Part shown: piece by piece, positions 1-24,570 of the stretch
Layout of the letters: each line of letters starts with the position of its first letter
How positions within the stretch are numbered: the stretch's first letter is position 1
NCBI GenBank assembly: GCA_938003855.1
Contig: CALKXD010000121.1
Coordinates: 1-52,134, forward strand
Direction: 5' to 3'
Length of the DNA: 52,134 nucleotides
From: an uncultured Granulosicoccaceae bacterium
Lineage (GTDB): Bacteria; Pseudomonadota; Gammaproteobacteria; Granulosicoccales; Granulosicoccaceae
Translations under genes and position numbers: made by a program
Notes under the pieces: model-generated
Databases searched by the model: none
What the model saw: only the letters and a program-made list of their open reading frames with translations
What the model was told of the DNA's origin: nothing

Positions 1-189
1 GGTAGATCAAAGTGAGTTTGACTTTATCCGGGTAGATATAGTGATGGCAGTGTACATGCTACCGGGTTAACTCAATTTTTAACTGGACAGTTTGCCTTTC
101 CAGGCACAGGGCTGTTTTGTTTTTATATTATCTTTTACAAAGTGCGGCAGCGGATTTCCCGCATTGCTTCATCACTAATCACGTACGGG

Positions 190-1007: not shown

Positions 1008-4000
1008 TTAATACTTACCAACCAGGTTCAAAAACCAGCCACGCACGTCGTAGTCATCCGTGGCTAGATTATCGTCAAAGCCGGTGAAATTGTAGCCGAC
1101 CGAAAACTGCAGATGGGTACTGACATTGTATCCCAGGGCCAGCAACGCACCCTGCAGCAGGGTGTCGCTTGCGTCGGATTTAAGCCAGTGGTACGAGCCA
1201 ATGACATCAGCGCCGAGCGGGGCTTTATAGCGCACTCGAAAAGCAGACAGCGCTGCATCGTTGGATACCCAGTCGCCCCCGTTTCGCTGCAGCCGGACCC
1301 GACCGTCACGGTGTGCCAGCTTGCCACCAATGCTCCATCGCTTGCCGAGTTCATACATGCCTTCGACGCTGTAGATCGATGAACGGGTATCGCTTGTGTC
1401 CGCTTGCGATAGAGGCGGGAGGTCGTGCAGGTAGGTCAGCCGGCCAAGCAGGTTGAATCGATCATTATTGACAGGACGGTAGGCAAAACCGACACCGGCT
1501 TCGGTGAATCTGGCATCATCGTCTGCCAGACGGTCGCTTGTCGATGAGGTATTCAGTCGGGCCTGCCAGCGCAGCGACGGTGATTGACGGTAGTCGAGGT
1601 GGTTTGTCATCACCCATTGATCTGTGTCTGTTGTGTCTGATTTGTCCCGGCGATATTCGAGTTTACTGCTTACGTGACTTGGCCCGTATTTATAGCTCAG
1701 CCCGGTGGAGACGGTATTGCGTCTTGTGATTGATGCCTGCTCGTCTTCGATGCGCGATGACTGGACCGATAACGTGCCGGTGGCGTGGCGATTAAAAGTG
1801 TTGCTCAAGCCGATAGTATTCGCGAGGCCGGTTTGCTTGTCATCGTCACTGAACTGGTGTTCTGTGTAGATTTTAAGATTGTCTGACAGGGTTTTTCTCT
1901 GACCCAGGGTGGTGGCATTGCGCAGTTCGTTCTGTGGGTTGTTGAGCAGACTGAAATTGCTATAGATACTGTAAGTGTCGCTCATTTTCCTTTCGGCACC
2001 TATCTGCAGGTTGGTGCCCCGATCCCCTGAACTGAGCTCTGTGCTCAGAGTCATTTTGTCGTCTATGCGTGCAGTAGCACCGGCGGTAAGCAGTGTGTTG
2101 TCGTTGTAGTTTCCGCTGCTCTGAAGAACGCCTTGAGCAATGCCGTAAACTGAAACCGAATCCGTTAACTTAACCTGCATTTTACCTGCTCCCAGTGTGG
2201 CAGACTCGGCTTCGCCAGAGGAAAATACCTCATCTCTGACGCGCCTTACCTCTGCGCTTAAGGTGGTATAGTCCGAGTATTTATAGTCGGCTTGAAATGC
2301 TGTGGTTGTTTCGCGGCTGGTGTTTTTCTTTTCCAGTTGTGTAGCGCGTCCAGACAATGTAAATGAGTCTCTGAGTTCTGCCACTACTTCTATACCACGG
2401 TCTGTGGTGTCTGTTCCGTTATCGAGACCCGCGGTTGAGAACCCGGCGTCGCGATACTTGCTCCAGGCGGCAACGACGATCGGTTTTTCAACAGACAAAA
2501 TATCATTGGCAGTGACTCTGGCCTCCAGACCCACTGCCATGCCGGATGATGCACTGCTGTTGCTGTTAAACGGGGTAAAGGTCAGGCCACCGTCACCGGA
2601 ATCGAAGCTGCCTGAATTCTGGCCGGACTCACTTTGCGCAACCTCGACTCTGAAATAGGTATTGTCAGTTTTCCTGACGGTGACATCGAGACCTTTGATA
2701 TCGTAGTCTTCGTTGTCACGGTTTTCGTGCGCCCAGGTACCGCCAACTGCGATGTGATCTGTGATCCATTGCTTGCCGCGTACCCCGAAGGTGGCGTCGC
2801 CTTCACCGACCGTCGACGGTGCGTACTCGTAGTCAACCACCAGGAAGGTATTGTCGTCCGGTTGCGGCTCGTCGCGAATAATCGACGGACCGCTGCTGGT
2901 GGATACACTGAGCAGTGGCCTGGTCAGAAGGATACGGCCCTGAAATTCGTCGAGTTCATAGTCACGGCCGCGTACCAGCGCTATTTTCTGCAGCACCTGC
3001 TCTGACGAGTTTCGTCTGACTTCAATCCAGATTTTTTCAGACCCCAGGACAATATCCTGATCGCGCAGGTAATAAAGGCTGCCGCCGGTGGCCTCGAACT
3101 CATTGTGGCGGAAACGGGTCTGTGACTCGGACATGAAGGCTGAGATCTGTGTTTTAGTGTCGCCGAGTGTTGTGGTTTTGTGACTGCGATGCTGTAACCG
3201 GGCACCATAGAGACTGCGATTAAACGCTGCATATTCGGTTCCGCTGAATGCTGTATTGAAGTTCCCCCACAGTGCGTGGGATTTATCCCAGTCAACCCGT
3301 AGATAGAGTTTACCCTGGCTATCGGTGTCTTCGACGATGGTTGAGTCATCGCCATACAGCAGATAGTACTGATCCGGGTCAATTCTTCGGAATACGCTGC
3401 TGGCATCTTTGCGGTGGAAGTTGTTGAATAGTTCCGAGACATCTTCTGTGCCGGTGTCCATTTGCGCGGTGATCAAATATTTACCGCGAACTTTACCTTT
3501 GAGATAAAACGCTAAGCGACCGTCGACAAATATGTCGCCGCCGTAGTGGTCTTCATCAACGGCTAACGGTTCTATACTGCCGCTGACGTTGTTTTTTCCG
3601 ATAGTGAGATCTGCCATACCCACCATAAAAAAGTAGTTGGGTTTAACGTCAATATCGAGTTTTTTGCGCGAGGTTTCACCGGTTACAGATTCTGCTGAGA
3701 TCTCGAACGCATGGTTGCCCGGTGGCAGAATATACTGCGAGGTAAACCCGTCTTCGCTGTTTATGGCAATCTTTTCGCCATTCACGTTAACCGTTTGAAT
3801 GCCGTTCAGGTCCTGGCCGCGGACGGTCACAGTACTGCCGGTTACGTCGATTGACTGCCGGGTATAGTTACGGTTGTAGGTCTCCAGATCTTCACTGAGC
3901 GATTTTACAGAGACCTTGTCCGTCGCCTGTAGTGATCCGGGGTCAGCTGTGAGCAGATCATTGGTTGAAACAAAAGTGATGGTGCTTGTTTCTGTTTGAT

Positions 4001-4661
4001 CAAAGTTACCTTTAGTGTCAAAGACCCGCAGGGCAATGTCATAGGTGTCGTCGGCGATCAATGCCTGGTCTGCCAGCCTACCGTGTTTGGTGGTACCGTC
4101 CCATTCTATCTCGGTGATGGTTCCTGATAATGTACCTTGCAGAACATGCAACGGCGTACTTTCCGGCGTGCTGTTGGCGGGCAGAATCAGTAGCTGCCAG
4201 CGGTCTATAAAGTGTCCGTAGTTGGTTGCGATTGAGATGGTTACCGGATTTTTCAGAGCACCATGCTCAATGGCCGCTGTGGCGGGGACTTTTATACCGA
4301 GCACAGGCTCGATTGTGGTCGGGTCTCGCGATACCCAGTAGTGACCATTACCGCTGTCAGAATATCTGTCGGCGGCTTCAATAGCGGTTGCAACCGGCAG
4401 TGCGTCGGGTCGGGGGTGTGTGGTTTTAAGGCTGACGTCAACCCGCCGGCTTCCCTGCAGTGTATTGCCGGCGTGTGACTGAGGACCGGGGTTTCCTTCA
4501 CCGTAGGTGATGATCCGCAACGAGTAGGGGGCTTCCTTTTCGCAGTCGTCGTAGAGGCAGTTAGGGTGTAATGCGAAACTGTAGCGTGGTTCGACTAGCG
4601 TGGCTGTACCACTGATCACGGCACAGGAGATTGCAATATTCAAGTAGTTTAATTTGATCAC
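1008..4661 (-). CDS. Large outer-membrane beta-barrel protein with N-terminal Ig/FlgD-like domains
   Basis: 1217 residues with an N-terminal hydrophobic signal (about 1-30). Residues about 30-330 look like beta-sandwich modules, including a FlgD-like stretch (W-D-G-T-T...G around residues 195-200) and a second Ig-like unit. A central segment follows with a conserved-looking Y-Y-L-L-Y-G-D-D-S-T motif. The C-terminal half is rich in alternating polar/aromatic strands and ends in Gly-Lys-Tyr, as outer-membrane barrels do. It starts at GTG; the GTGA overlap shares 4 bp with the end of the upstream DUF11/OmpA gene, so translation is probably coupled. From its position I infer that it anchors, exports or assembles the secreted repeat proteins encoded upstream. 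I do not recognise a named family; it is not a TonB receptor, as no plug or TonB box is seen. Confidence 0.75.
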   Translation of the reverse strand: MIKLNYLNIAISCAVISGTATLVEPRYSFALHPNCLYDDCEKEAPYSLRIITYGEGNPGPQSHAGNTLQGSRRVDVSLKTTHPRPDALPVATAIEAADRYSDSGNGHYWVSRDPTTIEPVLGIKVPATAAIEHGALKNPVTISIATNYGHFIDRWQLLILPANSTPESTPLHVLQGTLSGTITEIEWDGTTKHGRLADQALIADDTYDIALRVFDTKGNFDQTETSTITFVSTNDLLTADPGSLQATDKVSVKSLSEDLETYNRNYTRQSIDVTGSTVTVRGQDLNGIQTVNVNGEKIAINSEDGFTSQYILPPGNHAFEISAESVTGETSRKKLDIDVKPNYFFMVGMADLTIGKNNVSGSIEPLAVDEDHYGGDIFVDGRLAFYLKGKVRGKYLITAQMDTGTEDVSELFNNFHRKDASSVFRRIDPDQYYLLYGDDSTIVEDTDSQGKLYLRVDWDKSHALWGNFNTAFSGTEYAAFNRSLYGARLQHRSHKTTTLGDTKTQISAFMSESQTRFRHNEFEATGGSLYYLRDQDIVLGSEKIWIEVRRNSSEQVLQKIALVRGRDYELDEFQGRILLTRPLLSVSTSSGPSIIRDEPQPDDNTFLVVDYEYAPSTVGEGDATFGVRGKQWITDHIAVGGTWAHENRDNEDYDIKGLDVTVRKTDNTYFRVEVAQSESGQNSGSFDSGDGGLTFTPFNSNSSASSGMAVGLEARVTANDILSVEKPIVVAAWSKYRDAGFSTAGLDNGTDTTDRGIEVVAELRDSFTLSGRATQLEKKNTSRETTTAFQADYKYSDYTTLSAEVRRVRDEVFSSGEAESATLGAGKMQVKLTDSVSVYGIAQGVLQSSGNYNDNTLLTAGATARIDDKMTLSTELSSGDRGTNLQIGAERKMSDTYSIYSNFSLLNNPQNELRNATTLGQRKTLSDNLKIYTEHQFSDDDKQTGLANTIGLSNTFNRHATGTLSVQSSRIEDEQASITRRNTVSTGLSYKYGPSHVSSKLEYRRDKSDTTDTDQWVMTNHLDYRQSPSLRWQARLNTSSTSDRLADDDARFTEAGVGFAYRPVNNDRFNLLGRLTYLHDLPPLSQADTSDTRSSIYSVEGMYELGKRWSIGGKLAHRDGRVRLQRNGGDWVSNDAALSAFRVRYKAPLGADVIGSYHWLKSDASDTLLQGALLALGYNVSTHLQFSVGYNFTGFDDNLATDDYDVRGWFLNLVGKY

Positions 4662-7600
4662 CGATCAGCCTCCGGATTGGCAGCTGGATCGATTTCCACG
4701 CGGATTCTGGACATCAGCTTTTTACCCAGGGCGCGCGCAAGGATATCGCGAACAGTATCTGCTCTTTGGTGCGCCAGAATGGTGTTGTACTGGGCGCTGG
4801 CGCGGTTGTCGGTGTGAGCCGAGATTGTAATGACGCCTCCGCCATACTCACGAAGCGCGTCAATTATATCGGCCACGACACCGCGTTGATCGTCACGTAT
4901 AGACGCATCGTCGGTATCGAAGAAAATGGAACCCAGCTTGACTTCAACTGCTTGTCTGGCGGCGGCTGTGTGAGGCTCGCAGCCGTGTGCATACTGATCC
5001 ATTGGTTCCGGCAGGAAAACACCGAAGTTCATTCTGTTCAGTGCTCTATTGTCGATCCTCAGCACGTAAGGGTTTTCTGTCGTGAATAGCGCGTTGGCTG
5101 GCAGAGATGCAGGATCGACCTTGAGAATGAAGTTACGCCCGTTTGCCGTGTTTCCGGCGTCAACATCGGGAATACTGAAGCGGCCATACCCGTCAGCGGC
5201 TATCAGCAGTCCGCTGGCGGTGGCAAGTCTTGCACCGGGGATACCGGTCTCGCCAATACCCAGATTACTGAGCGTGATTTCGATGATGTCTACGGGGTCA
5301 GTGCCGGTAGTGCTATCGGCAAGCGTTGGTATGCCGATGGTGTGGCGGGTACAGACTTTTATGTCCTGCGCATTTATGCCGCGCGCCCGGTCACCAATGT
5401 GTCGTTCGGTAACTGAGCCGTTATTGTCTATCTCGATTCGAGTGCCTTCGCGGGTAGAGATTTCAAAGCGGTTATCGTTTGTTGCCGGCATGTTCACCAC
5501 CACTGCCGTGCTGGCCGGGTCGTCATTGATGCTGCCACGCGCGGGCAGATCGGGTAATTTCAGTGTGACGTAGTAGGGGCTCTGAATGGTTACCTGTGTT
5601 GCAGTAGCGGGATCCTGAATACCGTCTTTGTCGCGATCCCAGAATACCTTGCCAGTCAGCGTGGCCTGGCTTAATACGGTATCTGCGACGAGCTCTACAC
5701 CCGCGACTGCTTCGTTACTGGCCTCTCCGTTAGGGCCACTGGCTTTTACCCTGTTGGTGTAGTAACCACGGACCACGCCGGTGCCGACGCGCATCATATA
5801 GCTGATGCGTATCGACTCTTCAGGTGCCAGATCAATCTGACCGAGTGTCATGGTATTGGTAATCGCCGCATCCAGCGGCGTGATGACATCGTCTGCGGTG
5901 CCGAGTTCCAGATCCGCGCCTGTTCTGGTGAGCAGTACTGTGTTCGGCACGTAGGAAAAACCTGCGGGCGGGGTATCTATAATTTCGATATCCAGCGCCG
6001 GGGCCTGCTTGAGATTTTCAGCGGTTATCGTGTACTTCAACAGACCACCGACAGAGGTGCTCCGCTGGCTGGTACTTTTAGTCAGCAGAATTTCGGCGTC
6101 GTTGGCTCTGGCGTCAATCGGCAGGTGATTGAAAATGACATTCTGATCCCCCGATTCGAGCGCAAACTCGATGAAGTATCGGGTGTCGTCTCCGACTTGC
6201 GGGGCGTCTGGCTGTGGCTGGATCTCACAGGCATTGGTGTTGCTGAGTGCATCGACGGTACATAGTGATTCATTGTTGTTTGAATCGAAGGTTCCAGACA
6301 CCGCACAGCCGATCGCAGCGCTGCCGCAACCTGCTGCACCGACCGGTCTGATGATGGCGGAGAAGTCCGGGTGATAGGCCGCTGGCGCACTGACTATTTC
6401 CAGCCGATAAACATCGGCACTGGCACAAGTGCTGTGTGCCCCCGGTATAACATCGAATGCATACAATCCGTCGGCGGCAGTTACCTGACCTTGTTGATTG
6501 TCGCGTAGGCAGGTCGCATCGATTACTGTGCCAGTCGCATTCACCAGATGGAGCGTTACCCCCTCAACGGCGGAGCGTTCGATGCTGTCGTAGACAACCC
6601 CGCTCGGATCAACTGGCAACGGCAATAGCACTGTCTGACCGGCGACAACCGGCCCGGTTGTTTGTACGCTGTCCATGAAAACGCCGTTGACATTATAAAA
6701 CTCTATAGTGTATTCACCGGGAATCAGATCTAGAAACTCATACTCACCGTTTTCATCTGTGGTGGTTATGGCAACCACCCGGCCATCGCTATCCAGCAGG
6801 TTCAACGTCCAGTCGGTTTTTCGGGTTTCATCGCTGTTAACCTGGCCGTCTTTGTTGTGGTCAAGCCAGGCTGTGCCGGTTATAGAGGCCGGTGATTCGT
6901 AGGTAATGGTGACCGTGGCGCGGTTTGATTCGGCGTTGGTAGAATCAAACACAGTGTATTCAACGGGTGTCGGGTTGCGCAGATAACCCGCATCCGGTGT
7001 GAAGGTGATATTGCCGGTAACCAGGCTGACCCGCCAGACACCTTCACCGGCGACAGGCAGAACGGTTACCGATGCATCGGTCTGCGGATCAACAAGAGTC
7101 ACTGTCACCGGGTCGAGATTTTCCTCCGGGTCCGAGTCATTGCTCAGAACGGCGACGACTACCGGTTGGGCCAGCGGTTGGTTGAGTGCCTCATCATCTA
7201 CCGCCAGTGGAGCTGTTTGCGGATAATCAACGGTAATACTGGCCTGATTAGATACCAGCCCGGTAGTGTCTGAAATCGTGTAAAACACGGGAGTCGGGTC
7301 ACTGAAAAATCCCGACAGTGGAGTGAAGGTTACGCCACCTGTTTCATTGTCTATTTGCCAGTAGCCCTCGCCAGCGACGATCAGGTTGTCGGTATCGCCA
7401 TCACCGTCGGTATAGGTTGATCGGGCATCGGTAAACGTAACGGTACGGGCATCGAGATCATTCTCGGGATCAGTGTCTGCACCCTCGCCGTTGTCGGCCA
7501 GAACGTTCACCGTGGTTGGATTTTCCGGTGACGGCACAGCCGGGTTTACTTTCACATCGGCCTTCGCCAGTGGTGCTGTCTGCGGGTAGTTGATACTGAG

Positions 7601-10588
7601 CCCGGCGGCATTGGACACCTGACCGCTGCGATCGCTGATGGTGTAGCTAACCGGGGCCGGATCGTCGGTGTAACCCACCTCAGGCGTGAAGGTCACCGTA
7701 CCGGTGTTGTTGTCTGCTATCCAGCTGCCAACGTTTGCGACAGTAAGGCTGTCGAAGTCGCCATCACCATCGGTATCCAGTGCGTCTGGGTGGATCAGGC
7801 TAACGGTTGTGTCGTCTTTGTCGTTGTTGATATCACTGTCGTTGGTGCCACCGGGCAGGGTGACCGGGACCGCACTTATCTCAGAGCTCACGTGGTCTGC
7901 GGTGGCGACAGGTGGTGTAGTTATCATCTGAACGGTGATCACGCCACTGTCAGCGCCGATGCTCTGCCCGCCGGGGTCAATTGAACTGACTGACGCCAGA
8001 TTGTCTATTTTTGTTGCCGCGATGTCGGCATCTACGACAGTGCGTATGGCCGTACAGTTCATCTGATCGCCCGGTTCCAGGGTGAACGGGCCTGTGGATA
8101 ATTGTGCAGAAACCGGTTGACCCGGTGGCAGACAGCGCAGGCTGCCCCGGTCCGCCAGTGGGTCGCTTATCGTGACCTCTGTGAGTGGCAGATTTCCGGT
8201 GTTGCTGACCAGAAAGGCATAGTTGATGATGTCACCGGCGATGGTAAAGCCTTCTTCCACAGCGGTTTTTACGATTTTTATTGCGGGCTGCTGGCTTATA
8301 CCGGTCTCTGCGGAGTCGCTAAGTGTGCCGGCCTCTGCGGTATCGACAGTCACAGAATTAACCAGCGCTGTTCCTGCAACAATATCTGCCAGTGACGCGG
8401 AATAACCCGTGTTGTACGTCCAGGTCTCACCGACATCCAGCGCGCTGGCAATGCCAACATCACCGGTCGGTCCGGTTAACAGTGTTGTTGTGCCATCGGG
8501 GAGTTGATCGCTGACGACGACATCGGTCAGGGTGATGTTGCCGGTGTTGCTTATCGTTATCCGGTAGGACAGCAACTGTGGTTCAGAGATAGTTTGTTGC
8601 TCAACAGTCTTTTCAACACTAAAGCCCGGTGTGCTGGTGATGGTGGTGGTAGCGCTTGCGGTATAGAGGTCTGTGCCTGTCTGCTCACTGGTAACAGTGA
8701 CGGTATTGTTCTTCGGTGACCCGGCGTCTATGTCACTTTGGCCGACGCTGTACGTTGTGGTGTACTGCCATGTTTCTGCGACGTCGAGGGTGCCGATAGC
8801 TCCGCTGTCATTGAGCGGGCCCACCAGTACGGCGGTTGTACCGTCGGGAAGTGTGTCTACCGGTGTGACGCCGGTCAGGCTGGTATTGCCGGTGTTGATG
8901 ACGTCAATAACATAGCTGACAGTGGCAGGTGCGCTGAGCGTTGCCTGGTCTGCGGTTTTGGTCACCCGTATTTCAGGGGCGCTGCTGACGACTGTTGTCG
9001 CCGATGCGGTTTGCGGATCTGCCTCTGCCGGGTTAACGCTGATGGTGTTGGTGAGATCAGCGGTGGTGTCTATATCGGCCTGGGTTACCTGATAGGATGA
9101 GGTGTAGTTCCACGATTCGCCGACATCCAGTACACCTGCGACACCGGTGTCGCTGGATGGGCCATTGAGCTCTATCACCGAACCATTGGAGTACTGATCA
9201 GTCATTGCGACATCACTCAGTGTGACGTTGCCGGTGTTGGTAATCTCTATCCTGTAGCTGAGCAGGCCGGGAGTGCTGACAGACGTCCGGTCGACCGTTT
9301 TTGCAACGGTGAAGGCGGGTGTTGTGACTATTTCCGTCGTTGCGGAATCGCTCTGAGGGGTTGTGCCGGTTTCATTGCTTACCACTTCAACGCGATTAAC
9401 CAGATCCACTGCAGAGTCAATAGTGTTCTGATCCACCGGGTAGCTGATGTTATAGATCCAGGTTTCGGCAACGTCCAGCACACCCGCGGTGGCACTATCG
9501 GCAACAGGCCCGGCGGGGGTGACGTCGGTGCCATCGGGCAGGTAATCCGTGACGGTCACGCCGGTGAGCGAGAGATTGCCGGTGTTTTCGACCGCTATGG
9601 TGTAGTTCAGCGTTGCTGGTGCTGACAATGAAGGGCTATCGACGGCTTTGGTGACGGTGAAGCCTGGTTTCGATACTATAAGTGTCTCGGCTGTTGCGGT
9701 CCGCGCAGCGCTGCCGGTTTCCAGAGCCGTAACTGTCACCGAATTGATCAGTGCGTTGCCGCTATCGATATCGGTTTGGGTCGCTGTATAGCTTGTGGTG
9801 AACTCCCAGCTTTCACCCGGGGAGAGTTGTGCGGGTTGTCCGGTATCGCCAGCGGGACCGGTGAGCGTCGCGGTTGTTCCATCCGGCAATGTATCGGTGG
9901 GGGTGATCCCCGTGAGGGTCTGGTTGCCAGTGTTGGTCACAGCTATGGTGTAGGTCAGTGTTGACGGTATTGCTACAGAAGGTTGGTCGACTGCCTTAGT
10001 TACGGTCAATGCCGGCCTCTGTGAAACCGGCACGGCGACGGAGTCTGATACCGCTGGCAACTCATTGGTTGATACGGTAACGGTGTTATCTATATCGGCG
10101 TCACCGCCTCCGTTGGTATCGATGTCGGATTGCTGGACCTGGTAAGTTCCCTGCCATTGCCATATTTCGTTGGCGCCCAGGATGCCGTCGTTATTTGTAT
10201 CGCCGCTGATCAGTGACATATCCGCGTCGGCGATAATGCTGTCGGCCACGGTGACATTGGTGAGACCGAGCAGACCCGGGTTTTCTGCGGTAACGGTGTA
10301 AGTGATTTGATCCCCCGCCGCGATCGGGTCAGACAGCGCCGAGGTATCAGCGGATTTGGTGATTTTCAGGCCTTTTGGCAGAACCACCACGCTTGCGGTG
10401 TTGTTGGCTGTGTTGTTTTCGAACTGACCCGGAGAGGCGGCGACAACACCGGTGTTGGTGTATTGCGCCGCAGCCATGCCATTCACTGCCGAGACTACCG
10501 GGTTGGATATAGTGAAGCAGCACAAGCCGACAGCGACAGCGGTCAGCTGTCGCTTTGCTCGTCTAAAATGGAGTGGCCCGGGTATCAA
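4658..10588 (-). CDS. Giant surface protein: DUF11-type repeats, CshA-type repeats, SdrD-B-like modules, C-terminal OmpA domain
   Basis: 1976 residues. A signal peptide (about 1-34) is followed by a segment resembling the N-terminus of the 1591-residue neighbour (Tyr-x-Asn-Thr...Gln-Phe-Glu-x-Asn). Then come seven DUF11/DUF7507-type beta-sandwich units of about 115 residues (about 70-885; recurring N-T-G-N...L-P-D-G-T), three CshA-type fibril units (F-T-P-x-x-G-Y...Y-T-I-S-D), SdrD-B/prealbumin-like units (G-T-A-W-L-D-H-N-K-D-G), one more DUF11-like unit, and an OmpA domain at 1881-1976 with the peptidoglycan-binding motif H-T-D-N. The OmpA end should hold it to the cell wall in the periplasm while the repeats extend outward; that topology is inference. 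The start is TTG, overlapping the previous stop as TTGA; no ATG occurs in frame before the signal peptide. It overlaps the barrel gene by GTGA. Confidence 0.85.
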   Translation of the reverse strand: MIPGPLHFRRAKRQLTAVAVGLCCFTISNPVVSAVNGMAAAQYTNTGVVAASPGQFENNTANNTASVVVLPKGLKITKSADTSALSDPIAAGDQITYTVTAENPGLLGLTNVTVADSIIADADMSLISGDTNNDGILGANEIWQWQGTYQVQQSDIDTNGGGDADIDNTVTVSTNELPAVSDSVAVPVSQRPALTVTKAVDQPSVAIPSTLTYTIAVTNTGNQTLTGITPTDTLPDGTTATLTGPAGDTGQPAQLSPGESWEFTTSYTATQTDIDSGNALINSVTVTALETGSAARTATAETLIVSKPGFTVTKAVDSPSLSAPATLNYTIAVENTGNLSLTGVTVTDYLPDGTDVTPAGPVADSATAGVLDVAETWIYNISYPVDQNTIDSAVDLVNRVEVVSNETGTTPQSDSATTEIVTTPAFTVAKTVDRTSVSTPGLLSYRIEITNTGNVTLSDVAMTDQYSNGSVIELNGPSSDTGVAGVLDVGESWNYTSSYQVTQADIDTTADLTNTISVNPAEADPQTASATTVVSSAPEIRVTKTADQATLSAPATVSYVIDVINTGNTSLTGVTPVDTLPDGTTAVLVGPLNDSGAIGTLDVAETWQYTTTYSVGQSDIDAGSPKNNTVTVTSEQTGTDLYTASATTTITSTPGFSVEKTVEQQTISEPQLLSYRITISNTGNITLTDVVVSDQLPDGTTTLLTGPTGDVGIASALDVGETWTYNTGYSASLADIVAGTALVNSVTVDTAEAGTLSDSAETGISQQPAIKIVKTAVEEGFTIAGDIINYAFLVSNTGNLPLTEVTISDPLADRGSLRCLPPGQPVSAQLSTGPFTLEPGDQMNCTAIRTVVDADIAATKIDNLASVSSIDPGGQSIGADSGVITVQMITTPPVATADHVSSEISAVPVTLPGGTNDSDINNDKDDTTVSLIHPDALDTDGDGDFDSLTVANVGSWIADNNTGTVTFTPEVGYTDDPAPVSYTISDRSGQVSNAAGLSINYPQTAPLAKADVKVNPAVPSPENPTTVNVLADNGEGADTDPENDLDARTVTFTDARSTYTDGDGDTDNLIVAGEGYWQIDNETGGVTFTPLSGFFSDPTPVFYTISDTTGLVSNQASITVDYPQTAPLAVDDEALNQPLAQPVVVAVLSNDSDPEENLDPVTVTLVDPQTDASVTVLPVAGEGVWRVSLVTGNITFTPDAGYLRNPTPVEYTVFDSTNAESNRATVTITYESPASITGTAWLDHNKDGQVNSDETRKTDWTLNLLDSDGRVVAITTTDENGEYEFLDLIPGEYTIEFYNVNGVFMDSVQTTGPVVAGQTVLLPLPVDPSGVVYDSIERSAVEGVTLHLVNATGTVIDATCLRDNQQGQVTAADGLYAFDVIPGAHSTCASADVYRLEIVSAPAAYHPDFSAIIRPVGAAGCGSAAIGCAVSGTFDSNNNESLCTVDALSNTNACEIQPQPDAPQVGDDTRYFIEFALESGDQNVIFNHLPIDARANDAEILLTKSTSQRSTSVGGLLKYTITAENLKQAPALDIEIIDTPPAGFSYVPNTVLLTRTGADLELGTADDVITPLDAAITNTMTLGQIDLAPEESIRISYMMRVGTGVVRGYYTNRVKASGPNGEASNEAVAGVELVADTVLSQATLTGKVFWDRDKDGIQDPATATQVTIQSPYYVTLKLPDLPARGSINDDPASTAVVVNMPATNDNRFEISTREGTRIEIDNNGSVTERHIGDRARGINAQDIKVCTRHTIGIPTLADSTTGTDPVDIIEITLSNLGIGETGIPGARLATASGLLIAADGYGRFSIPDVDAGNTANGRNFILKVDPASLPANALFTTENPYVLRIDNRALNRMNFGVFLPEPMDQYAHGCEPHTAAARQAVEVKLGSIFFDTDDASIRDDQRGVVADIIDALREYGGGVITISAHTDNRASAQYNTILAHQRADTVRDILARALGKKLMSRIRVEIDPAANPEADR

Positions 10589-13500
10589 GGGGCATTCACT
10601 ATGACATCGAATGTCAGTGTCACCGGGCTGCCTGCCGGGACTGTGGCCAGAGTCCAGCTCAGTCCTGCACCGGTCGGATCGCTATCGTCATTTGCCGTGC
10701 CGCCGGCGATAGACCCTGCGACGTAGGCAAAACCCGGCAGCACGATATCGGTTACCGTCGCGTTGGTGGCAACATCGGGACCAGCGTTGCTGATGGTCAG
10801 CGTGAAAGTGACTGTGTCGCCAATGTTCGGGGTGATGTCACTCACCACTTTTGTTATCGATAGATCAATGCCAAGGTCGTTGTTTATAATTTCACACACC
10901 ACCGCCGCCCCCGGAGCCAGAGTTACCTGAGTACCGGTTGCGGTACCCGACGTCGGGAGTCCGCTCGTCAGTCCGTTGCTGTCACTGCAGGACCAGGTTC
11001 CCTCTGCGTAGCGGGGCAGATCAAGCTCGGTGATGCTGATGACTGTGTTAGCCATAACATCTATCGGTGTGCCGCTGGTCACTTCTGACCCGTCTATAGA
11101 AATATCAAAGTCTTCGACCGCTTTGTCGCCGCCGTTGTCGTTGATGACGGTTTTGATCAGTGTCAGTGTGGGTGAGATATCGTTGTTGGTAATCCCGCAG
11201 GTCACAATGGCACCTGACGCGAGTGTTATCAGCTCTCCCGATGCCGCACCGGTGGTTGGCAGATCAGCGGTAAGTCCGGTGCTGTCGGAACAGCTCCAGG
11301 TACCTGCCAGATAACCGTCGGGCTCAAGTTCACTGATCGTAATGGCGGTGTTGGCGACTACCGTCTGCGCGGTGCCTTCGGGGACTTCTGTGCCGTCGAT
11401 GGAGAGATCAAAATCGTCAATCGTCAGCGCGCCACCGTTGTCGTTTATCAGTGTTTTGGTCAGCGACAATGTGGGTGCAATATCGTTGTTGGTGATCATG
11501 CACGTGACATCGGAACCGGGAGCAAGTGACAACGAGTCTCCAGTGGCGACACCGGCAGATAACAGACCGGTACTTAAACTGTTTGCATCGGTGCAGGCCC
11601 ATGTGCCTTCGGTATAACCGGGGTAATCCGCTTCACCGATGGTGATCGCGGTGTTTGCCAGAACAGTTTGCGGGCTGGCACTGGCGGCAAGTGCGCCGTT
11701 GAGCAGCATGGTAAAGTCGGTATTGGTCAGCAGGCCACCGTCATCATTGATTACGTTCATGATCAGAGTCAGTCTGGGGCTTATATCATCATTGACGATG
11801 GCGCAATTCACGTTTGAGCCCGGGGCAAGCGTCAGATCGGTTCCGGTAGCCGTACCAGCGTCGGGTAGGTTTGTGGTCAGGCTGTTACTGTCCACACAAG
11901 ACCAGCTACCGTGGGTATATCCGGCAACGTCTAACTCACTGATGGTGATACTGCTATTTGCAGTAACGGTTTGTGCGACGCTGGCGGGGACTTCGTTGCC
12001 GTCGATGGACAGCTCGAAATCTGCGATGGTAAGCGCTCCTCCATCGTCGTTTATGACGGTTTTAGTCAGTGTTAGTAACGGTGCGATATCATTGTTTGTG
12101 ATTTCACAGACGACCGCTGAGCCTTCCTGCAGATTGACCGTTGTCGCCAGGGCGTCGCCACCGGTAGGCAGTCCGGTGGTCTGGCTATTCTGGTCACTAC
12201 ATGCCCAGCTGCCATTGGTGTAGCCGGGCAGGTTGAGTTCACTGATGATGAGATCGGTATTCGCAGCGACCGTATTTGACACACCACTGGTGACGACGTT
12301 GCCGTCTATAGAGAGATTGAAATCTCCGACGGTTAAATTGCCCCCGTCATCATTAATCAGCGTTTTTGTCAGCGTTAATGTGGGTGCGATATCTGAATTA
12401 GTGATCGAGCAGGTGACTTCGGCGCCGGGCTTGAGTTCAATGCTGACGCCTGTTGCGGCACCGGCCGTTGGCAATCCCGGAGTCAGGCTGCTGGCATCGA
12501 CACATGACCAGCTACCTGCAGAGTAACCCGGCAGGTCTAACTCGGAAATAGTCACAGCGGTGTTGGCCGGTACATTCACCGGTGTGCCGGACGCGACCGC
12601 GGTGCCGTCAATAGCGATATTGAAATCAGCAATCTCCAGTGCGCCTCCATTGTTGTTTTGAAGCGTTTTTACAAGCGTTAGCGTGGGCTGGATGTCGTCA
12701 TTGGTAATACTGCATTGCACAGCAGACCCGGGTACCAATGTCAGAAGCTCGCCTGACGCGTCGCCGTTAGCTGGTAAACCTGTTGCCAGACCATTGGCAT
12801 CAACACAGGACCAGCTGCCGCTGGTGTATCCGCCCGTTACTGCTTCACTGACTTCGATTGCGGTGTTGGCCATGACCGGAATAACCTGACCGCTGGTGAC
12901 AGGTGTTCCGTCAATCGATAGATCAAAGTCTCCTGCCACTAGATCACCGCCGTTGTCGTTTACGACGGTTTTGACCAGAGACAGTGTCGGTGTGATATCG
13001 TCATTAGTTATCTCACAGGTCACGGCTGATCCCGGTTTGATCGTCATTGAGACTCCGGTTGCCGTGCCGGCATCGGGTAAGGTGCCGGTTAGAGCATTTG
13101 CGTCAACGCAACTCCACGACCCCTCGGTATAGCCCGCAAGATCAAGCTCGCTAATCGTCAGCGGTATGTTGGCGGTAATTGTCTGAGCGGTATTGTGCGC
13201 GACGGCAGTGTTGTCTATCGCTAAGCCGAAGTCTGCGGCAACCCGATCACCACCATTGTCATTGATGATCGTATTCACCAGCGTCAGCGTGGCCGGAATA
13301 TCATTGTTGGTTATTTCGCATTGCACGGCAGAGCCGGGTTTCAGATTAACGGTCGTGTTGGCAGCACTTCCGGCAGTGGGCAATCCGGTTGTCTGCGCGT
13401 TGCCATCGGTGCACGACCAGGCGCCTGAGTCATAGCCGTCGACGATAAGCTCGCTGATCGTGATATCGACATTCGCCAGTACGGCCTGCGCAATGCCACT

Positions 13501-15360
13501 GACTGCTTCAGAGCCATCGATTGAGATGTCGAAATCTGCAATGGTCAGGTCACCGCCGTTGTCATTGGTGAGTGTTTTGGTCAGGGTGAGTGTCGGGGCG
13601 ATGTCATTGTTGGAGATCTCACAGGTGACGGCTGCCCCTTCGGAGAGCTCAACCACAGTGCCGGTGGCGATGCCTGCTGTTGGTAGACCGGTGGTAAGCC
13701 CGTTGGCGTCAACACAGGCCCATGTGCCTTCTGTGTAGCCACCATCATCAACTTCACTGATCGTATACGGTACGCCGGCTGATAACAGGTTGGCCACGCC
13801 ATTAGTGACTTCTGTTCCGTCTATAGAAATTTCAAAATCGTCAACCGTCAGCAGCCCGCCGTCGTCATTAACGATGGATTTTGTAAGCGTTAGTGTGGGG
13901 GCAATATCGTCGTTAATGATAGAACACGTAACCTCCGAACCGGGCGCGAGAGTGACGCTGGTGCCAATCGCGGCGCCGGCTGTTGGCAGTGCCGTTGCCA
14001 GCCCGTTTGCATCCACACAGCTCCAGGTACCCGCGGTGTAACCCTCTATTGCCAGTTCAGCAACGGTGATAGAGGTGTTGGCGTCGACTGATACAGCAGT
14101 GTTGTTGCTTGCCTCTGTGCCGTCGATAGAGATATCGAAATCGTCAATAGTCAATGATCCGCCGTTGTCATTGGTCAGTGTTTTTGCAAGTGTCAGTGTC
14201 GGTGCTATATCGTTATTGCTGATCGAGCAGGTAACCTCTGCGCCGGCGGCCAGCGTCACCGGTGTGCCGGTTGCGTTGCCGGCGGCAGGCAGGCCCGTAG
14301 TCAGGCTGGTGGCGTCAACACAGGCCCATGTGCCAGTGGTATAGCCGGGTAAGGCCAGTTCACTGATTGTCAGTACGGTGTTGGCTGCAACGGTCTGCGC
14401 TGTGCTGGCTGGTACCCCTGAACCCTCTATCGAAAGATCAAAGTCTGCAATAGAGAGGTTGCCGCCGTTGTCGTTGGTGAGGTTCTGTACAAGAGTCAGT
14501 CTAGGGGCGATATCGTTGTTGCTGATTTGACAGGTGACCTCGGCTCCCGGACTGAGTGTTACCACGGTCGACGATGCGAGGCCTGCAGTGGGTAGTCCGC
14601 TGGTCAGACCACTTGCGTCTAAACATTCCCAGGTGCCTTCTGCATAGCCTGGATCGTCGAGTTCACTGATGGTGATTGGCGTATTGGCACTGACCGGCTG
14701 AGCCAGTCCGCTGGGCACCACGGTGCCGTCAATGGCGGGGTCAAAATCGGCGGCAGTCAATGTGCCACCATCATCGTTGACAACGGTTTTGGCCAGTGTC
14801 AGCGTTGGTGCTATATCATTGTTAACGATGGTACAAACGGTGGATTCGCCAAATGCGAGAGTGATTTCACCGTCGTTATAGGTGTCTTTACTGAGTGTTC
14901 CGGTGCTGCAACTCCACAGCCCTTCAGTGTAGCCGTCTACATCTGCCTCTGCCAGAGTGTAGGTTCCGGGAGCGACATAAAGCGTGTCGGATGTGAATGT
15001 GGTTGTGGATCCGGCCGTTGTACCTGAATCGAAAGACAGCGCACCGGCACTGGAGTTAATCCCGAAATCTACCAGTGACAGGGTGCCGCCATCGTCGTTT
15101 ATGACCTGTTTTACAATGATTATTTCAGCATTGGGAGTCACGCCGACTGTATTGCTGTTGTTGGCGTTGTTGATTTCGAATTGATCTGCCGAGGGTGACA
15201 CCACGGCCGTATTTTCGTAGTCTGACAGCGTCATTGGGTATGCGACCATTGGGATCAGCATTAACCCGAGCACACTCAGACGCGGAGCACTGAACTCCTT
15301 TTCAAGAAGCGTGTGCCTGATGGTTTTATAGAATCGATCTGTTTTAGTATTTTTTATCAT
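10585..15360 (-). CDS. Secreted tandem CnaB-like repeat protein with terminal DUF11 module
   Basis: 1591 residues. An N-terminal segment contains a hydrophobic export stretch (about 27-43), then a spacer, a divergent first repeat (78-184), 13 repeats of exactly 101 residues (185-1497), and one DUF11 module (1498-1591). Each 101-residue unit keeps Trp60-x-Cys62, Glu49 in an I-S-E-L-type strand followed by G-Y, Cys93 and Asn97. Lys7 is present in 10 of 13. This Lys/Glu/Asn layout is that of CnaB (prealbumin-like) domains that form Lys-Asn isopeptide bonds; the Cys pair could add a disulfide. The likely role is a rigid extracellular stalk or adhesin. It ATG-starts 28 nt after the 632-residue gene and shares its last 4 bp with the next gene. 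No sortase motif or lectin domain is seen, so the ligand is unknown. Confidence 0.85.
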   Translation of the reverse strand: MIKNTKTDRFYKTIRHTLLEKEFSAPRLSVLGLMLIPMVAYPMTLSDYENTAVVSPSADQFEINNANNSNTVGVTPNAEIIIVKQVINDDGGTLSLVDFGINSSAGALSFDSGTTAGSTTTFTSDTLYVAPGTYTLAEADVDGYTEGLWSCSTGTLSKDTYNDGEITLAFGESTVCTIVNNDIAPTLTLAKTVVNDDGGTLTAADFDPAIDGTVVPSGLAQPVSANTPITISELDDPGYAEGTWECLDASGLTSGLPTAGLASSTVVTLSPGAEVTCQISNNDIAPRLTLVQNLTNDNGGNLSIADFDLSIEGSGVPASTAQTVAANTVLTISELALPGYTTGTWACVDATSLTTGLPAAGNATGTPVTLAAGAEVTCSISNNDIAPTLTLAKTLTNDNGGSLTIDDFDISIDGTEASNNTAVSVDANTSITVAELAIEGYTAGTWSCVDANGLATALPTAGAAIGTSVTLAPGSEVTCSIINDDIAPTLTLTKSIVNDDGGLLTVDDFEISIDGTEVTNGVANLLSAGVPYTISEVDDGGYTEGTWACVDANGLTTGLPTAGIATGTVVELSEGAAVTCEISNNDIAPTLTLTKTLTNDNGGDLTIADFDISIDGSEAVSGIAQAVLANVDITISELIVDGYDSGAWSCTDGNAQTTGLPTAGSAANTTVNLKPGSAVQCEITNNDIPATLTLVNTIINDNGGDRVAADFGLAIDNTAVAHNTAQTITANIPLTISELDLAGYTEGSWSCVDANALTGTLPDAGTATGVSMTIKPGSAVTCEITNDDITPTLSLVKTVVNDNGGDLVAGDFDLSIDGTPVTSGQVIPVMANTAIEVSEAVTGGYTSGSWSCVDANGLATGLPANGDASGELLTLVPGSAVQCSITNDDIQPTLTLVKTLQNNNGGALEIADFNIAIDGTAVASGTPVNVPANTAVTISELDLPGYSAGSWSCVDASSLTPGLPTAGAATGVSIELKPGAEVTCSITNSDIAPTLTLTKTLINDDGGNLTVGDFNLSIDGNVVTSGVSNTVAANTDLIISELNLPGYTNGSWACSDQNSQTTGLPTGGDALATTVNLQEGSAVVCEITNNDIAPLLTLTKTVINDDGGALTIADFELSIDGNEVPASVAQTVTANSSITISELDVAGYTHGSWSCVDSNSLTTNLPDAGTATGTDLTLAPGSNVNCAIVNDDISPRLTLIMNVINDDGGLLTNTDFTMLLNGALAASASPQTVLANTAITIGEADYPGYTEGTWACTDANSLSTGLLSAGVATGDSLSLAPGSDVTCMITNNDIAPTLSLTKTLINDNGGALTIDDFDLSIDGTEVPEGTAQTVVANTAITISELEPDGYLAGTWSCSDSTGLTADLPTTGAASGELITLASGAIVTCGITNNDISPTLTLIKTVINDNGGDKAVEDFDISIDGSEVTSGTPIDVMANTVISITELDLPRYAEGTWSCSDSNGLTSGLPTSGTATGTQVTLAPGAAVVCEIINNDLGIDLSITKVVSDITPNIGDTVTFTLTISNAGPDVATNATVTDIVLPGFAYVAGSIAGGTANDDSDPTGAGLSWTLATVPAGSPVTLTFDVIVNAP
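10870..14808 (-). repeat. Tandem 303-bp coding repeat, 13 units
   Basis: Thirteen in-frame units of 303 bp (101 codons) with no length variation, inside the 1591-residue gene. Units differ by many substitutions, so this is an old array, but uniform length suggests maintenance by selection or by unequal recombination. The array is a likely site of copy-number change between strains. Confidence 0.9.
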
Positions 15361-15388: not shown

Positions 15389-17287
15389 TCAAGGAGCGAT
15401 TACAGTTGCTTTAAAGGTTAAAACTTCCGTCGTGTTTGGGGCCAGGCTGGCAATTCCCCATTCGAGGCCGGTTCCCGCTGGTGACGTCTCTAGCATTGTC
15501 GAGCCACCTGTCATAGAAGCTGTGACGTAGCTGAAACCGGCTTTTACGACATCGGTAACCTGAACATCTGTCGCGTTGTTCGGACCGTTGTTAGTCACTT
15601 TGATCGTGAAGGTAACGGTGTCGCCCGCATTGGGTGAGCTGTCGTCGACGGACTTAAACACCTCGAGGTCAACGCCCCGGTCATCATTAATAAATGTACA
15701 AACGACGTTTTCCCCGTCTGTTATGTCCAAACCGTCTGATCCGATTGTGTCAATGCCATTGCATGTGATCTCCATCAGTGCGTAGCCCTGGGCGCCGGTT
15801 TCGGAGAGCGTGTAACTTCCGGGTAGAACACTGGTGTTGGTAATGGCAGTGGCGCCGTGCGGGCCGCTGGTGGATACGCCGCTGGCGTCTTCAAAACTCA
15901 GAACGAAATCACCGACCAGTGCGGTGCCGCCATTGTCGTTGATGACAATTTTTTCGAGAGTCAGGAATGCTTCCGGCGGAGGGACGAAGAGGTCGTCATT
16001 GATGAGCGTGCAAACTGCGGAGTCACCCGCACTCAGTGTTATCGTTGTGCCGGTTAAGGTTGTACCAGTGCAACTCCATGACCCCAGGTAACCGCCCGGA
16101 CCGGTCTCCGATAGCGTATAGGTGCCGGGGCTGACTGTGGCCTTTGTTATATCTGCATCACCACTTTTACCGGCGATGGCATCTGCGCCACTTGCGATTA
16201 AGTTGAAATCAGTGGTTGTTGATGAACCACCGTTGTCGTTAACGACCTGCTTTAACATAGTGAGTTCCGCCGTGGCGAAAACCCAGTAGTCGATAATTTC
16301 TTTGGTATGGCTACGTGAGGTGTCTGCCGCGAAAACTTCTTCATCGATGGCAAGCGTGATTTGATTGGCTGAAAGCGGATCCGATCCATACAGGACAGCC
16401 CATGATCCGTCGCCACCATCCTCACCGACCTGATTTAGTACGCCGACGGTGTAGTTGCCGTTAACGGTATAGGTATACCCGCTGTTTGAGGCGTTATTGC
16501 CGGCGATTGAATCGCTGCCCCTGGCAAGCGCATAGGCAATACCGTTTACGCTGCCACTGCCTGCTTCGGCTACCAGGTAGCCGATAGTCTCTGGAGCTCG
16601 CGTGCCGGCAATCTGACCAATGTGCTTACCGACGCAGATTCCGTCTGAGTGTCCGCTGTTATAGGGCTCATTGGTCCGTGATTCACAGTCTGATGCGGTA
16701 AAAACACTGGCACGGTTGTCCTGATTGCTGATCACCTGTCCGAGTACGACGTGGTTGGTATAGGTGTTGGTGATGGTCGCGCTGACATCTTCCATCAAGG
16801 ACTGAGTCCAGCCTCCATCAGTCGCACTCCGCCCCACCGTCTTGTCCGACTCAACGGTATAGGCTTCGTATTGACGGCCATCCGGCAAGGTGTGTGCGCC
16901 GCTGTCGGTCACCAGACAATGCACATCTGCGGTGACTGCTGTGGAGTCCTCCCATCCCTGAATCCGTATGTCGAACGTGTTTGTACTTATGTTTCGAATA
17001 CGAACGACTGCCGGGGTGTAGTCGTAATTCGGGGACGATCCCGAGAAGGACTGCAGGTTATATGTGCAAATTGGAATCGCACTGGAGTAGTTGTTCGATA
17101 GCGTGACGGTTTGCCAGTTGCTCGATACCGATCTGAGCAGGTGTACCTCAAGGTCAGCGGTAAGCACAGCAGCATGCGTGTTGGTTAGCAGTCCGCAGGA
17201 TGCAAACAGAATTGCCGCTGTTGCGATAACCGATCGGTGAAACAGATCCCCGATTTGACTGCCTATTGAGTTGAACTGCTGCTGCAA
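15389..17287 (-). CDS. Secreted protein with two CnaB-like repeats and terminal DUF11 module (first gene of operon)
   Basis: 632 residues. Signal peptide about 1-39 (hydrophobic 19-34, cleavage likely after T-H-A). A 300-residue N-terminal region (40-340) with several Cys and many Gly/Asn is of unrecognised fold and could be the functional head. Two repeats of the same family as the 1591-residue neighbour follow at 341-439 and 440-538 (Lys, S-E-T-G, Cys pair, I-N-D-D), then a 94-residue DUF11 module (539-632) of the same length as the neighbour's terminal module. The start is TTG at 17287, preceded by AGGA with 8 nt spacing; the nearby ATG is out of frame. It is probably the first gene of the four-gene operon and may be the tip or minor subunit. 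Confidence 0.8.
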   Translation of the reverse strand: MQQQFNSIGSQIGDLFHRSVIATAAILFASCGLLTNTHAAVLTADLEVHLLRSVSSNWQTVTLSNNYSSAIPICTYNLQSFSGSSPNYDYTPAVVRIRNISTNTFDIRIQGWEDSTAVTADVHCLVTDSGAHTLPDGRQYEAYTVESDKTVGRSATDGGWTQSLMEDVSATITNTYTNHVVLGQVISNQDNRASVFTASDCESRTNEPYNSGHSDGICVGKHIGQIAGTRAPETIGYLVAEAGSGSVNGIAYALARGSDSIAGNNASNSGYTYTVNGNYTVGVLNQVGEDGGDGSWAVLYGSDPLSANQITLAIDEEVFAADTSRSHTKEIIDYWVFATAELTMLKQVVNDNGGSSTTTDFNLIASGADAIAGKSGDADITKATVSPGTYTLSETGPGGYLGSWSCTGTTLTGTTITLSAGDSAVCTLINDDLFVPPPEAFLTLEKIVINDNGGTALVGDFVLSFEDASGVSTSGPHGATAITNTSVLPGSYTLSETGAQGYALMEITCNGIDTIGSDGLDITDGENVVCTFINDDRGVDLEVFKSVDDSSPNAGDTVTFTIKVTNNGPNNATDVQVTDVVKAGFSYVTASMTGGSTMLETSPAGTGLEWGIASLAPNTTEVLTFKATVIAP

Positions 17288-23691: not shown

Positions 23692-24564
23692 ATGAGCGAC
23701 AACTCGCCAACGATGGCTGCTCCGCAGTCAGAAGCCGGCTCCGGCACGCATGCCTCTGCAATGATAGATTTATCCCGCTACCCTGTCGGTGATCTAGATA
23801 GTGACCAGGGCCGGGCATTTGCCGATCAGTGTCGTCTGCAGTATGAGCAGACCGGGTTGTGTATGTTGCCGGGTTTTATTAACAAGTCAGCACTCGATGA
23901 ACTGGCTAGCGAAGCAGCGGTATTCAGTGATCAGGCCTATTTTTGCAAGAGTTCCCACAATGCCTATCTGGATGGTGGGGATGCCAGTGTCAGTACGAAT
24001 GACGCGGCCAATCGACAAGAGCAGACTTTTGTCGGATCCGTCGCCTACGATAATATTGCGGAGAACAGCCGGTTAAAGCACCTGTATCAATGGGATCCGC
24101 TGAAAGACTTTATCGGCTATGTGCTAGGCAAATCGCCGTTCTATCGCTTTGCAGATCCTTTCGGTGCGTGTTCGATTAATGTATTTGTCGAGGGCGGTGA
24201 ACACGGCTGGCACTTTGATGAGTCCGAATACACGGTAACCTTAATGCTGCAGGCACCGGAAGCGGGTGGGGCGTTTGAGTATGTGCCACAGATTCGCGGC
24301 CACAAAAATGAAAAAGAAATAGTCGGTCGAGTGCTCGACGGTGAACGCGAAGGTGTGGTGGAACTGCCTTTCACTGCCGGCACACTGCTGATCTTCGGTG
24401 GTAATCAAACCTTGCATCGGGTAACCCGGGTCAGAGGCAGCCGGCCGCGATTAGTGCCGGTTTTGTGTTACGCAGAGGAGCCGGATCTGGTTAATAGTGA
24501 ATCCGTCCGGCAGCTTTTCTGGGGCCGAAGCGCAGCGGATGCGCAACCTGGCGCAACCGGTTAA
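23692..24564 (+). CDS. Fe(II)/2-oxoglutarate-dependent oxygenase (HalD/ArpA-like)
   Basis: 290 residues, cupin-fold oxygenase. The iron triad is visible as H174-F-D176 and distal H242, with R251/R253 placed to bind 2-oxoglutarate. The G-G-E-H-G-W-H-F-D context and the late L-H-R-V-T-x-V-x-G-x-R-x-R segment resemble the ArpA/HalD group of amino-acid-acting enzymes. Asp176 is kept, so a hydroxylase is expected rather than a radical halogenase, which has Gly or Ala there. An AGGTG lies about 9 nt before the ATG; a shorter product from Met24 is possible. It is six nt upstream of a second oxygenase and divergent from the peptide-type importer, pointing to hydroxylation of an imported or amino-acid-like substrate. 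The substrate is not identifiable. Confidence 0.8.
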   Translation: MSDNSPTMAAPQSEAGSGTHASAMIDLSRYPVGDLDSDQGRAFADQCRLQYEQTGLCMLPGFINKSALDELASEAAVFSDQAYFCKSSHNAYLDGGDASVSTNDAANRQEQTFVGSVAYDNIAENSRLKHLYQWDPLKDFIGYVLGKSPFYRFADPFGACSINVFVEGGEHGWHFDESEYTVTLMLQAPEAGGAFEYVPQIRGHKNEKEIVGRVLDGEREGVVELPFTAGTLLIFGGNQTLHRVTRVRGSRPRLVPVLCYAEEPDLVNSESVRQLFWGRSAADAQPGATG

Positions 24565-24570
24565 CCCGTC

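Follow-up and report, generated by a model that had tools for sequence, protein, structure and literature searches.

Split DUF11 ends that probably join the proteins of a Granulosicoccaceae surface fibre without a sortase

In the 52,134-nucleotide stretch of DNA from an uncultured Granulosicoccaceae bacterium analysed here, which we call the window, three neighbouring genes of the minus strand, A, B and C, encode proteins that carry at their ends the complementary pieces of a split DUF11 domain. We consider it reasonably probable that A, B and C make up one multi-protein surface fibre, having a shaft of SpaA_2 units and split-DUF11 joints that are probably sealed by intermolecular Lys-Asn isopeptides without a sortase. 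The original prediction for this DNA covered the repeats of B, which stand as described, and missed the split DUF11 joints at both ends of the protein; the larger finding lies in these protein ends, not in the repeat array. The parts of the cluster are as follows, the signal peptides of A, B and C being by-eye calls:

15389..17287, minus strand: gene A, 632 aa; signal peptide, an N-terminal head of its own, two SpaA_2 units and a C-terminal truncated DUF11, acceptor only; proposed tip
15392..15676, minus strand: acceptor of A, a DUF11 cut off by the stop after profile columns 1-85 of 114
15653..15655 and 15551..15553, minus strand: Lys8 and Asp42 of the acceptor of A
10585..15360, minus strand: gene B, 1591 aa; signal peptide, donor strand, 14 SpaA_2 units and a truncated DUF11 acceptor; proposed shaft
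15130..15231, minus strand: donor of B, a DUF11 tail of 34 aa (TLSDYENTAVV...TPN) whose isopeptide Asn is at 15211..15213
14827..15129, minus strand: first SpaA_2 unit of B, divergent
10870..14808, minus strand: thirteen 101-aa SpaA_2 units of B
10588..10872, minus strand: acceptor of B, likewise cut off by the stop after DUF11 columns 1-85; Lys8 at 10849..10851 and Asp42 at 10747..10749
4658..10588, minus strand: gene C, 1976 aa, its TTG start overlapping the stop of B; donor, DUF7507/DUF11 repeats, CshA repeats, SdrD_B and a C-terminal OmpA-like domain; proposed base
10373..10474, minus strand: donor of C, 34 aa (AAAQYTNTGVV...LPK), with its Asn at 10454..10456
4724..4924, minus strand: OmpA-like domain of C (PF00691), proposed peptidoglycan anchor
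1008..4661, minus strand: gene D, 1217 aa, overlapping the stop of C by 4 bases; putative barrel-like envelope protein

Gene D has no Pfam or NCBIfam match above the cut-off, and its barrel nature was judged by eye and from weak matches. Elsewhere in the window, at 23692..25374, there are two adjoining PhyH-like oxygenases, one of which matches the halogenase HalD family (E 2.3e-19).

Both A and B end in columns 1-85 of the 114 of DUF11, at the same seam and without the strands that bear the isopeptide Asn, and both B and C start with a signal-peptide-like stretch followed by 34 residues resembling the DUF11 tail. The A end alone scores 88.0 bits (columns 1-85), rising to 101.9 bits (columns 1-113) when the B donor is joined to it, as compared with 89.2 bits when that donor is reversed; in the same way, the B end scores 71.1 bits alone, 84.1 bits (columns 1-114) with the C donor, and 73.4 bits with the reversed donor. 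The gain from joining is hence 13 to 14 bits, versus 1 to 2 bits for the reversed control. By themselves, the donors match DUF11 weakly (14.7 bits for C, no score for B), and at these ends a DUF11 (PF01345) is complete in neither chain alone and becomes complete after joining two chains. In the profile alignment to the CLIPPER structure 9IFR, the acceptor Lys8 corresponds to Lys715 and the donor Asn102 to Asn806, two residues that are bonded to each other in that structure (PMC12617251; the papers cited here by PMC number were available in part), and the acceptor Asp stands 34 residues past the Lys in the window acceptors and in the deposited 9IFR alike. The available text of PMC12617251 prints Asp748; if Lys715 and Asn806 are right, this is position +33, where the deposited 9IFR has Asn, its Asp being at +34.

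The arrangement A-B-C(-D), in the same order and on the same strand, is present in 14 genomes including that of the window, in some of which C or D is cut by the contig end or lies outside the stretch, and five further clusters, from a scan in which the close relatives are uncultured Granulosicoccaceae, bring the total to 19; the length of B goes from 383 to 1606 residues across clusters. In these 19 clusters, the acceptor Lys is kept in 39/39 cases (18 A ends, 19 B ends and two further proteins of locus L119), all of them stopping at the seam, and no A has a donor. Donors with the Asn are found at 37/37 starts (19/19 of B and 18/18 of the C starts present), a count resting on every B and C having matched, given that the search pattern includes the Asn, and a length of 34 aa is shared by each of the 28 donors examined, which come from 14 clusters. 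Judged from sequence, this joint conservation of Lys and Asp on one chain and Asn on the other is what a natural tag/catcher pair with a putative bond would display.

A control set of 616 DUF11 domains from 123 loci (after dropping 12 loci of contigs present twice) contained 106 that reach within 8 residues of the ORF stop; on the 130-column model, 105 of them break off at columns 90-99 and one at column 50, and internal DUF11 domains mostly extend to columns 105-130. The loci had been chosen for SpaA_2, D, a B-like protein, an acceptor or X3 (a protein of a second family, f75, presented below), so the following are group and not genome frequencies of DUF11 ending at the ORF stop: 42/207 in Granulosicoccaceae, 51/92 in f75, 8/13 in a third family, f132, 2/5 in Cocleimonas, 1/188 in D-homologue loci of other families, and 2/111 in the remaining loci (L057 and L052). 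This regularity bears on whether the split is an artefact, with one large gene interrupted by a stop or a frameshift, or with a gene in decay, an explanation that we find scarcely credible: some neighbours do share a frame and are separated by one to three stops, but every cluster has the same seam, the two halves have signal-peptide-like stretches between them, and the stops coincide at one place with a single exception. Readthrough of the stop codon from A into B was likewise considered and rejected, given that it is in-frame in some clusters only and that a signal-peptide-like stretch lies in between.

The residues themselves are kept more strictly at the seam than elsewhere, with the Lys in 106/106 and the Asp in 104/106 terminal acceptors, as against a complete triad in 266/368 scorable internal DUF11 domains. 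This speaks to the alternative that the joints are real but are held by non-covalent donor-strand complementation, with Lys, Asp and Asn kept for folding. Donor-strand fibres without isopeptides are common (PMC9715654), and the Lys-Asn bond is here inferred from sequence; however, such strictness at the terminal acceptors, the Asn in all donors and the bonding of the same positions in 9IFR (PMC12617251) make the non-covalent alternative unlikely as compared with sealed joints.

For the fold of the joint, an artificial chain read across the stop of A into B was modelled by AlphaFold2 from an alignment with 12 natural in-frame neighbours from relatives. The best model had a pLDDT of 81.0 (60.9-68.9 in the other four), with values of 88-98 in the acceptor (residues 1-90), 41-62 in the linker and 93-94 in the donor. 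Its top Foldseek match was 9IFR (E 5.1e-7), and VIA aligned 116 of the 123 residues of 9IFR over positions 1..182 of the model with a Z of 12.5, a larger number of residues than the 95-residue acceptor has to offer by itself. The joint model also matches isopeptide pilins (EbpB, BcpA and PilA), and unrelated Ig-like proteins such as integrins match at similar Z. The predicted fold, together with the sequences, is that expected for donor-strand complementation, where a sandwich is open at one end and its missing strand is carried by the next subunit.

The mechanism we propose is the following. Once secreted beyond the inner membrane, A, B and C would come together there, A and B each offering at the C-terminus an open groove with a reactive Lys and a catalytic Asp, and B and C each contributing, as the mature N-terminus, the missing strand pair with the reactive Asn. 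The N-terminus of B would enter the sandwich of A, and that of C the sandwich of B, their folds being completed by donor-strand complementation; insertion would set the Lys beside the Asn of the other chain, and the Lys would attack the Asn with the help of the Asp, as in CLIPPER, with an intermolecular isopeptide forming without any enzyme, as in a natural tag/catcher. With A being acceptor only (tip), B carrying both pieces (shaft), and C being donor only with the OmpA-like anchor (base), the order would be A-B-C in an adhesive fibre that C may hold through its OmpA-like domain. We infer both the compartment of this assembly and the role of D, which may help at the outer membrane.

Swapped pairs fit equally well (B-B at 84.8 bits, A-C at 101.4 bits), and the order A-B-C is not set by this fit because the B donor suits the B acceptor (84.8 bits) as well as the C donor does (84.1 bits). 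These near-equal values would suit a B that mainly joins to itself, either into a homopolymeric pilus or into a closed ring, to which A would be added as cap and C as base only occasionally, but the acceptor-only A and the donor-only C are co-encoded in every cluster where present, and self-joining is in any case compatible with the A-B-C fibre and not exclusive of it; as the main state of affairs, we regard it as quite improbable.

With regard to known assembly machineries, no sortase sorting signal was found by reading the C-termini, A and B stopping at the DUF11 seam and C ending past its OmpA-like domain. There is a sortase gene on another contig of the same Gram-negative genome (G000 contig C7, 38625..38993). 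Among the 14 window proteins, the Pfam scan found no chaperone or usher genes, and for a PapD_C line inside B no stretch passes on its own; lacking a chaperone and an usher among these 14 proteins, the cluster would not classify as a chaperone-usher pilus. It resembles such pili in having an incomplete Ig-like fold completed by the N-terminal strand of the next subunit, and differs from them in the absence of chaperone or usher matches in the window proteins scanned, in its long multi-domain subunits and in its isopeptide triad.

CLIPPER 9IFR of Acinetobacter silvestris (PMC12617251) shares the fold, the Lys and Asn positions and the setting in a Gram-negative fibrillar adhesin with an OmpA-like end, but there one chain makes an intramolecular bond, whereas here the domain would be shared between two proteins. 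The SpyTag/SpyCatcher and CnaB splits (PMC5487036) are likewise split isopeptide domains, in which the tag is a strand with the reactive Asn or Asp; those are man-made, in contrast to the natural split described here, which lies in DUF11 and would chain subunits. The Sulfolobus acidocaldarius thread (PMC9715654) also combines donor-strand complementation with a proposed intermolecular isopeptide and no sortase, although there the N-terminal amine of subunit n+2 reacts with Asn57 within a fibre of one subunit, and here a Lys side chain would react with the donor Asn of a different protein. An intermolecular isopeptide in a helical fold has been described by Remaut, Sleutel and Sogues 2025 (as cited in PMC12617251), and Gram-negative isopeptides are known from Mfa5 (PMC7835359) and CLIPPER (PMC12617251). 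The F-ENA anchors were considered and set aside, as DUF11 occurs there only as repeats in the available part of PMC11952670.

No paper on natural split DUF11 joints was found in the literature searched, most subscription journals and preprints lying outside that search, and the split isopeptide domains in the papers found are engineered only. Laboratories make wide use of split isopeptide domains, and if our reading is true, it would explain a covalent multi-protein fibre of a Gram-negative cell without a sortase, provide ready-made ligation pairs from two families, with 34-residue donors in one of them, and turn proteins annotated as ending in DUF11 into predictable fibre subunits. Granulosicoccus is a kelp-surface bacterium (PMC8944128), a life that suits an adhesive fibre and proves nothing.

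In a search of 369 genomes of the class, the acceptor profile found 9 genomes at E <= 1e-12, including that of the window. In two genomes of f132, 8/8 matches are C-terminal acceptors on proteins with differing heads, among them DUF285/PARCEL repeats and PKD. Acceptor-only proteins with varied heads, some of them far from the donor genes seen, occur at L119 (3..1232 and 15765..16487), L128, L129 and L210-L216. No donor gene for the acceptor-only proteins of f132, L128 and L129 lies within the stretch read, and a search for the f132 donor partner with C gave one match (G373) to residues 411-541 of C, which is thus not the donor. The "PamR" CPR pilus name of NCBIfam was rejected, its match being far below the cut-off and over the PKD region, with no paper of that name found. 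Such scattering with differing heads would also be expected if the truncated DUF11 were a C-terminal sorting or secretion tag for a transporter, the N-terminal strands of B and C being unrelated to it; nevertheless, in the window the next gene opens with the matching missing piece, and joining restores the full profile and a CLIPPER-like fold, for which reason we hold the tag explanation to be very improbable. As pieces of split joints, the scattered acceptor-only proteins are candidate exchangeable tips.

The second gammaproteobacterial family, f75, shows the same tip-shaft-base logic as an independent occurrence, with another putative anchor, IPTL-CTERM. Its cluster in G109 has two acceptor-bearing proteins, one of them cut at its start, besides X3 (donor, GEVED, one complete DUF11, acceptor) and X4 (donor, GEVED, SdrD_B repeats, IPTL-CTERM). 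In 16 loci of the family (15 loci of X3 relatives, plus L218), acceptors stand at 51 C-termini, and donors are listed for 22 ORFs. An acceptor is present as well in 17 of these ORFs; among the other five, four have an IPTL-like tail and the fifth is cut. The acceptor Lys is kept in 49/49 aligned (two gaps) and the Asp in 49/51, with Glu in the other two; two more X3-like ORFs of L246 fall outside the donor pattern and read NNC at the same place. At E <= 1e-25, X3 has relatives in 27 of the 63 genomes searched in its order, some of them matching through the shared GEVED or DUF11 part only; the phylum-wide search gave 0/398 genomes at E <= 1e-40, an empty result that shows little, and against plasmids there was one weak match over 46% of the query that leaves the ends uncovered. 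L057 (Lysobacter, 8128..) and L052 (Hyphomicrobiales, 6340..) have one ORF each that stops at the seam, with no donor recognised in the next same-strand genes. For the Gammaproteobacteria in general, the reading that C-terminal DUF11 catchers and N-terminal tags bond spontaneously, so that varied acceptor-only heads would click onto a shared donor-bearing shaft and base without sortase, chaperone or usher, is in our judgement evenly balanced between being right and wrong.

Relatives of D are found in 49/369 genomes of the class, that of the window included. In many of these, other families among them, the C-like neighbour of D is one long adhesin chain whose DUF11 domains are complete, and at L160, L163, L165 and L171 a single polypeptide contains both a C-like and a D-like part. 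An open frame on contig C2 of G147 (L162-L163) spans 11777 residues, contains numerous DUF11 domains and has a D-like barrel at its end. In 20 D-homologue loci of other families there is one ORF stop inside DUF11, off the seam, and because of this the split joint is not general to D clusters. The Granulosicoccaceae fibre looks like an adhesin of this single-chain type divided into parts that would snap together.

As for the repeats of the shaft, the span of 10870..14808 given in the original prediction proved exact (13 x 303 bases, aa 185-1497 of B), as did the invariant length of 101 aa, with W-x-C anchors 101 aa apart throughout and 95 from the divergent first unit. The residues it listed were likewise borne out: Glu49, Cys62, Cys93 and Asn97 are in 13/13 units and Lys7 in 10/13, being Gln, Asn and Met in units 2, 6 and 11 of the array (3, 7 and 12 when the divergent unit is counted). 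The divergent first unit and the two units of A also have the Lys, Glu, both Cys and Asn, so that over the 16 SpaA_2 rows of the window the Lys is present in 13/16 and the Glu, each Cys and the Asn in 16/16. The identities between units are 48-67% in protein and 51-64% in DNA, and Tandem Repeats Finder sees no tandem DNA array in B, and the array is therefore old and diverged and not a recent expansion.

Protein B matches SpaA_2 (Pfam PF19403) with 405 bits and E 6.1e-124 over 14 stretches, followed by one DUF11, which is why the match cannot be due to chance, and the 16 matches in the genome are all above the curated cut-off. According to the accessible part of Costa et al. 2025 (PMC12617251), SpaA_2 is an isopeptide family having Lys, Glu and Asn in that order, disulfides are prevalent in it and occur in 58.2% of Pseudomonadota isopeptide domains, and the presence of isopeptides and disulfides together, both in SpaA_2 and in Pseudomonadota, is already predicted there. 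The isopeptide-like Lys/Glu/Asn pattern was thus rightly recognised, the repeats belonging to a CnaB-like (prealbumin-like) Pfam family listed as isopeptide-forming in that paper; the order holds at the family positions in 13/16 window units, with the Lys replaced in three. Of 601 aligned SpaA_2 domains (some contigs being present twice), 521 have no gap at the five positions, and 501 of these carry Lys, Glu and Asn together; the Cys pair is in 581/583 domains checked, so that the Lys/Glu/Asn and Cys pattern is a family hallmark and not an oddity. The suggestion that isopeptide plus disulfide would be unusual in a Gram-negative is not supported at family level, where the combination is ordinary, and the repeat array, for its part, belongs to a known family as one of its ordinary members. 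As compared with the SpaA_2 isopeptide domains of PMC12617251, with which they share the family match, the residue order and the predicted disulfides, the window units differ in forming a 14-unit shaft, in their invariant 101-aa spacing, and in three units without the Lys. The giant adhesin of Mobiluncus mulieris (5U5O; PMC10619420) similarly has Ig-like repeats with isopeptide and disulfide, but it is one protein of 7651 residues from another kind of bacterium, and the available part of that paper mentions no split joints.

By sequence, the repeats of B have no credible match among solved structures (best E 0.12). Two adjacent units, modelled by AlphaFold2 from an alignment of 54 of the 59 pairs found, are predicted to have a CnaB-type fold (pLDDT 93.2), Lys7 falling in strand 2-10, the first, and Asn97 in strand 90-99, the last. 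Foldseek put Spy0128 chains first (3GLD and 3B2M, E 6e-7), and VIA gave a Z of 8.6 over 173 residues, with an rmsd of 6.3 across two domains; Spy0128 is the classic isopeptide pilin. Against the disulfide- and isopeptide-bearing Mobiluncus adhesin 5U5O, the model has a Z of 7.8 over 97 residues at 2.8 A. The original reading of the repeats is in this way partly supported, and each SpaA_2 bead of B would be closed by a disulfide and, very probably, by an internal Lys-Asn isopeptide, the latter with the exception of units 3, 7 and 12.

Concerning these Lys-less units, the Glu or Asn is also lost in 8/15 Lys-less SpaA_2 domains versus 5/506 Lys-bearing ones (Fisher 6e-11, the rows being related and not phylogenetically independent). 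The four 14-unit arrays, those of the window, L116, L121 and L123, are largely collinear, and among them units 3 and 7 lack the Lys only in the window. In unit 12 of the 14 (window 11476..11778), the Lys is absent in 4/4 arrays (Met, Asn, Asn and Thr), with Glu49 and Asn97 retained in all four, and since this holds in all four congeneric arrays, a bead without the isopeptide lock is an old, kept feature; unit 12 is possibly a kept weak link. In the B array of L120 (3579..8252), all 11 spacings between regular units are of 103 residues, versus 101 residues throughout in the six other B arrays checked, the L120 array having changed its unit length as a whole.
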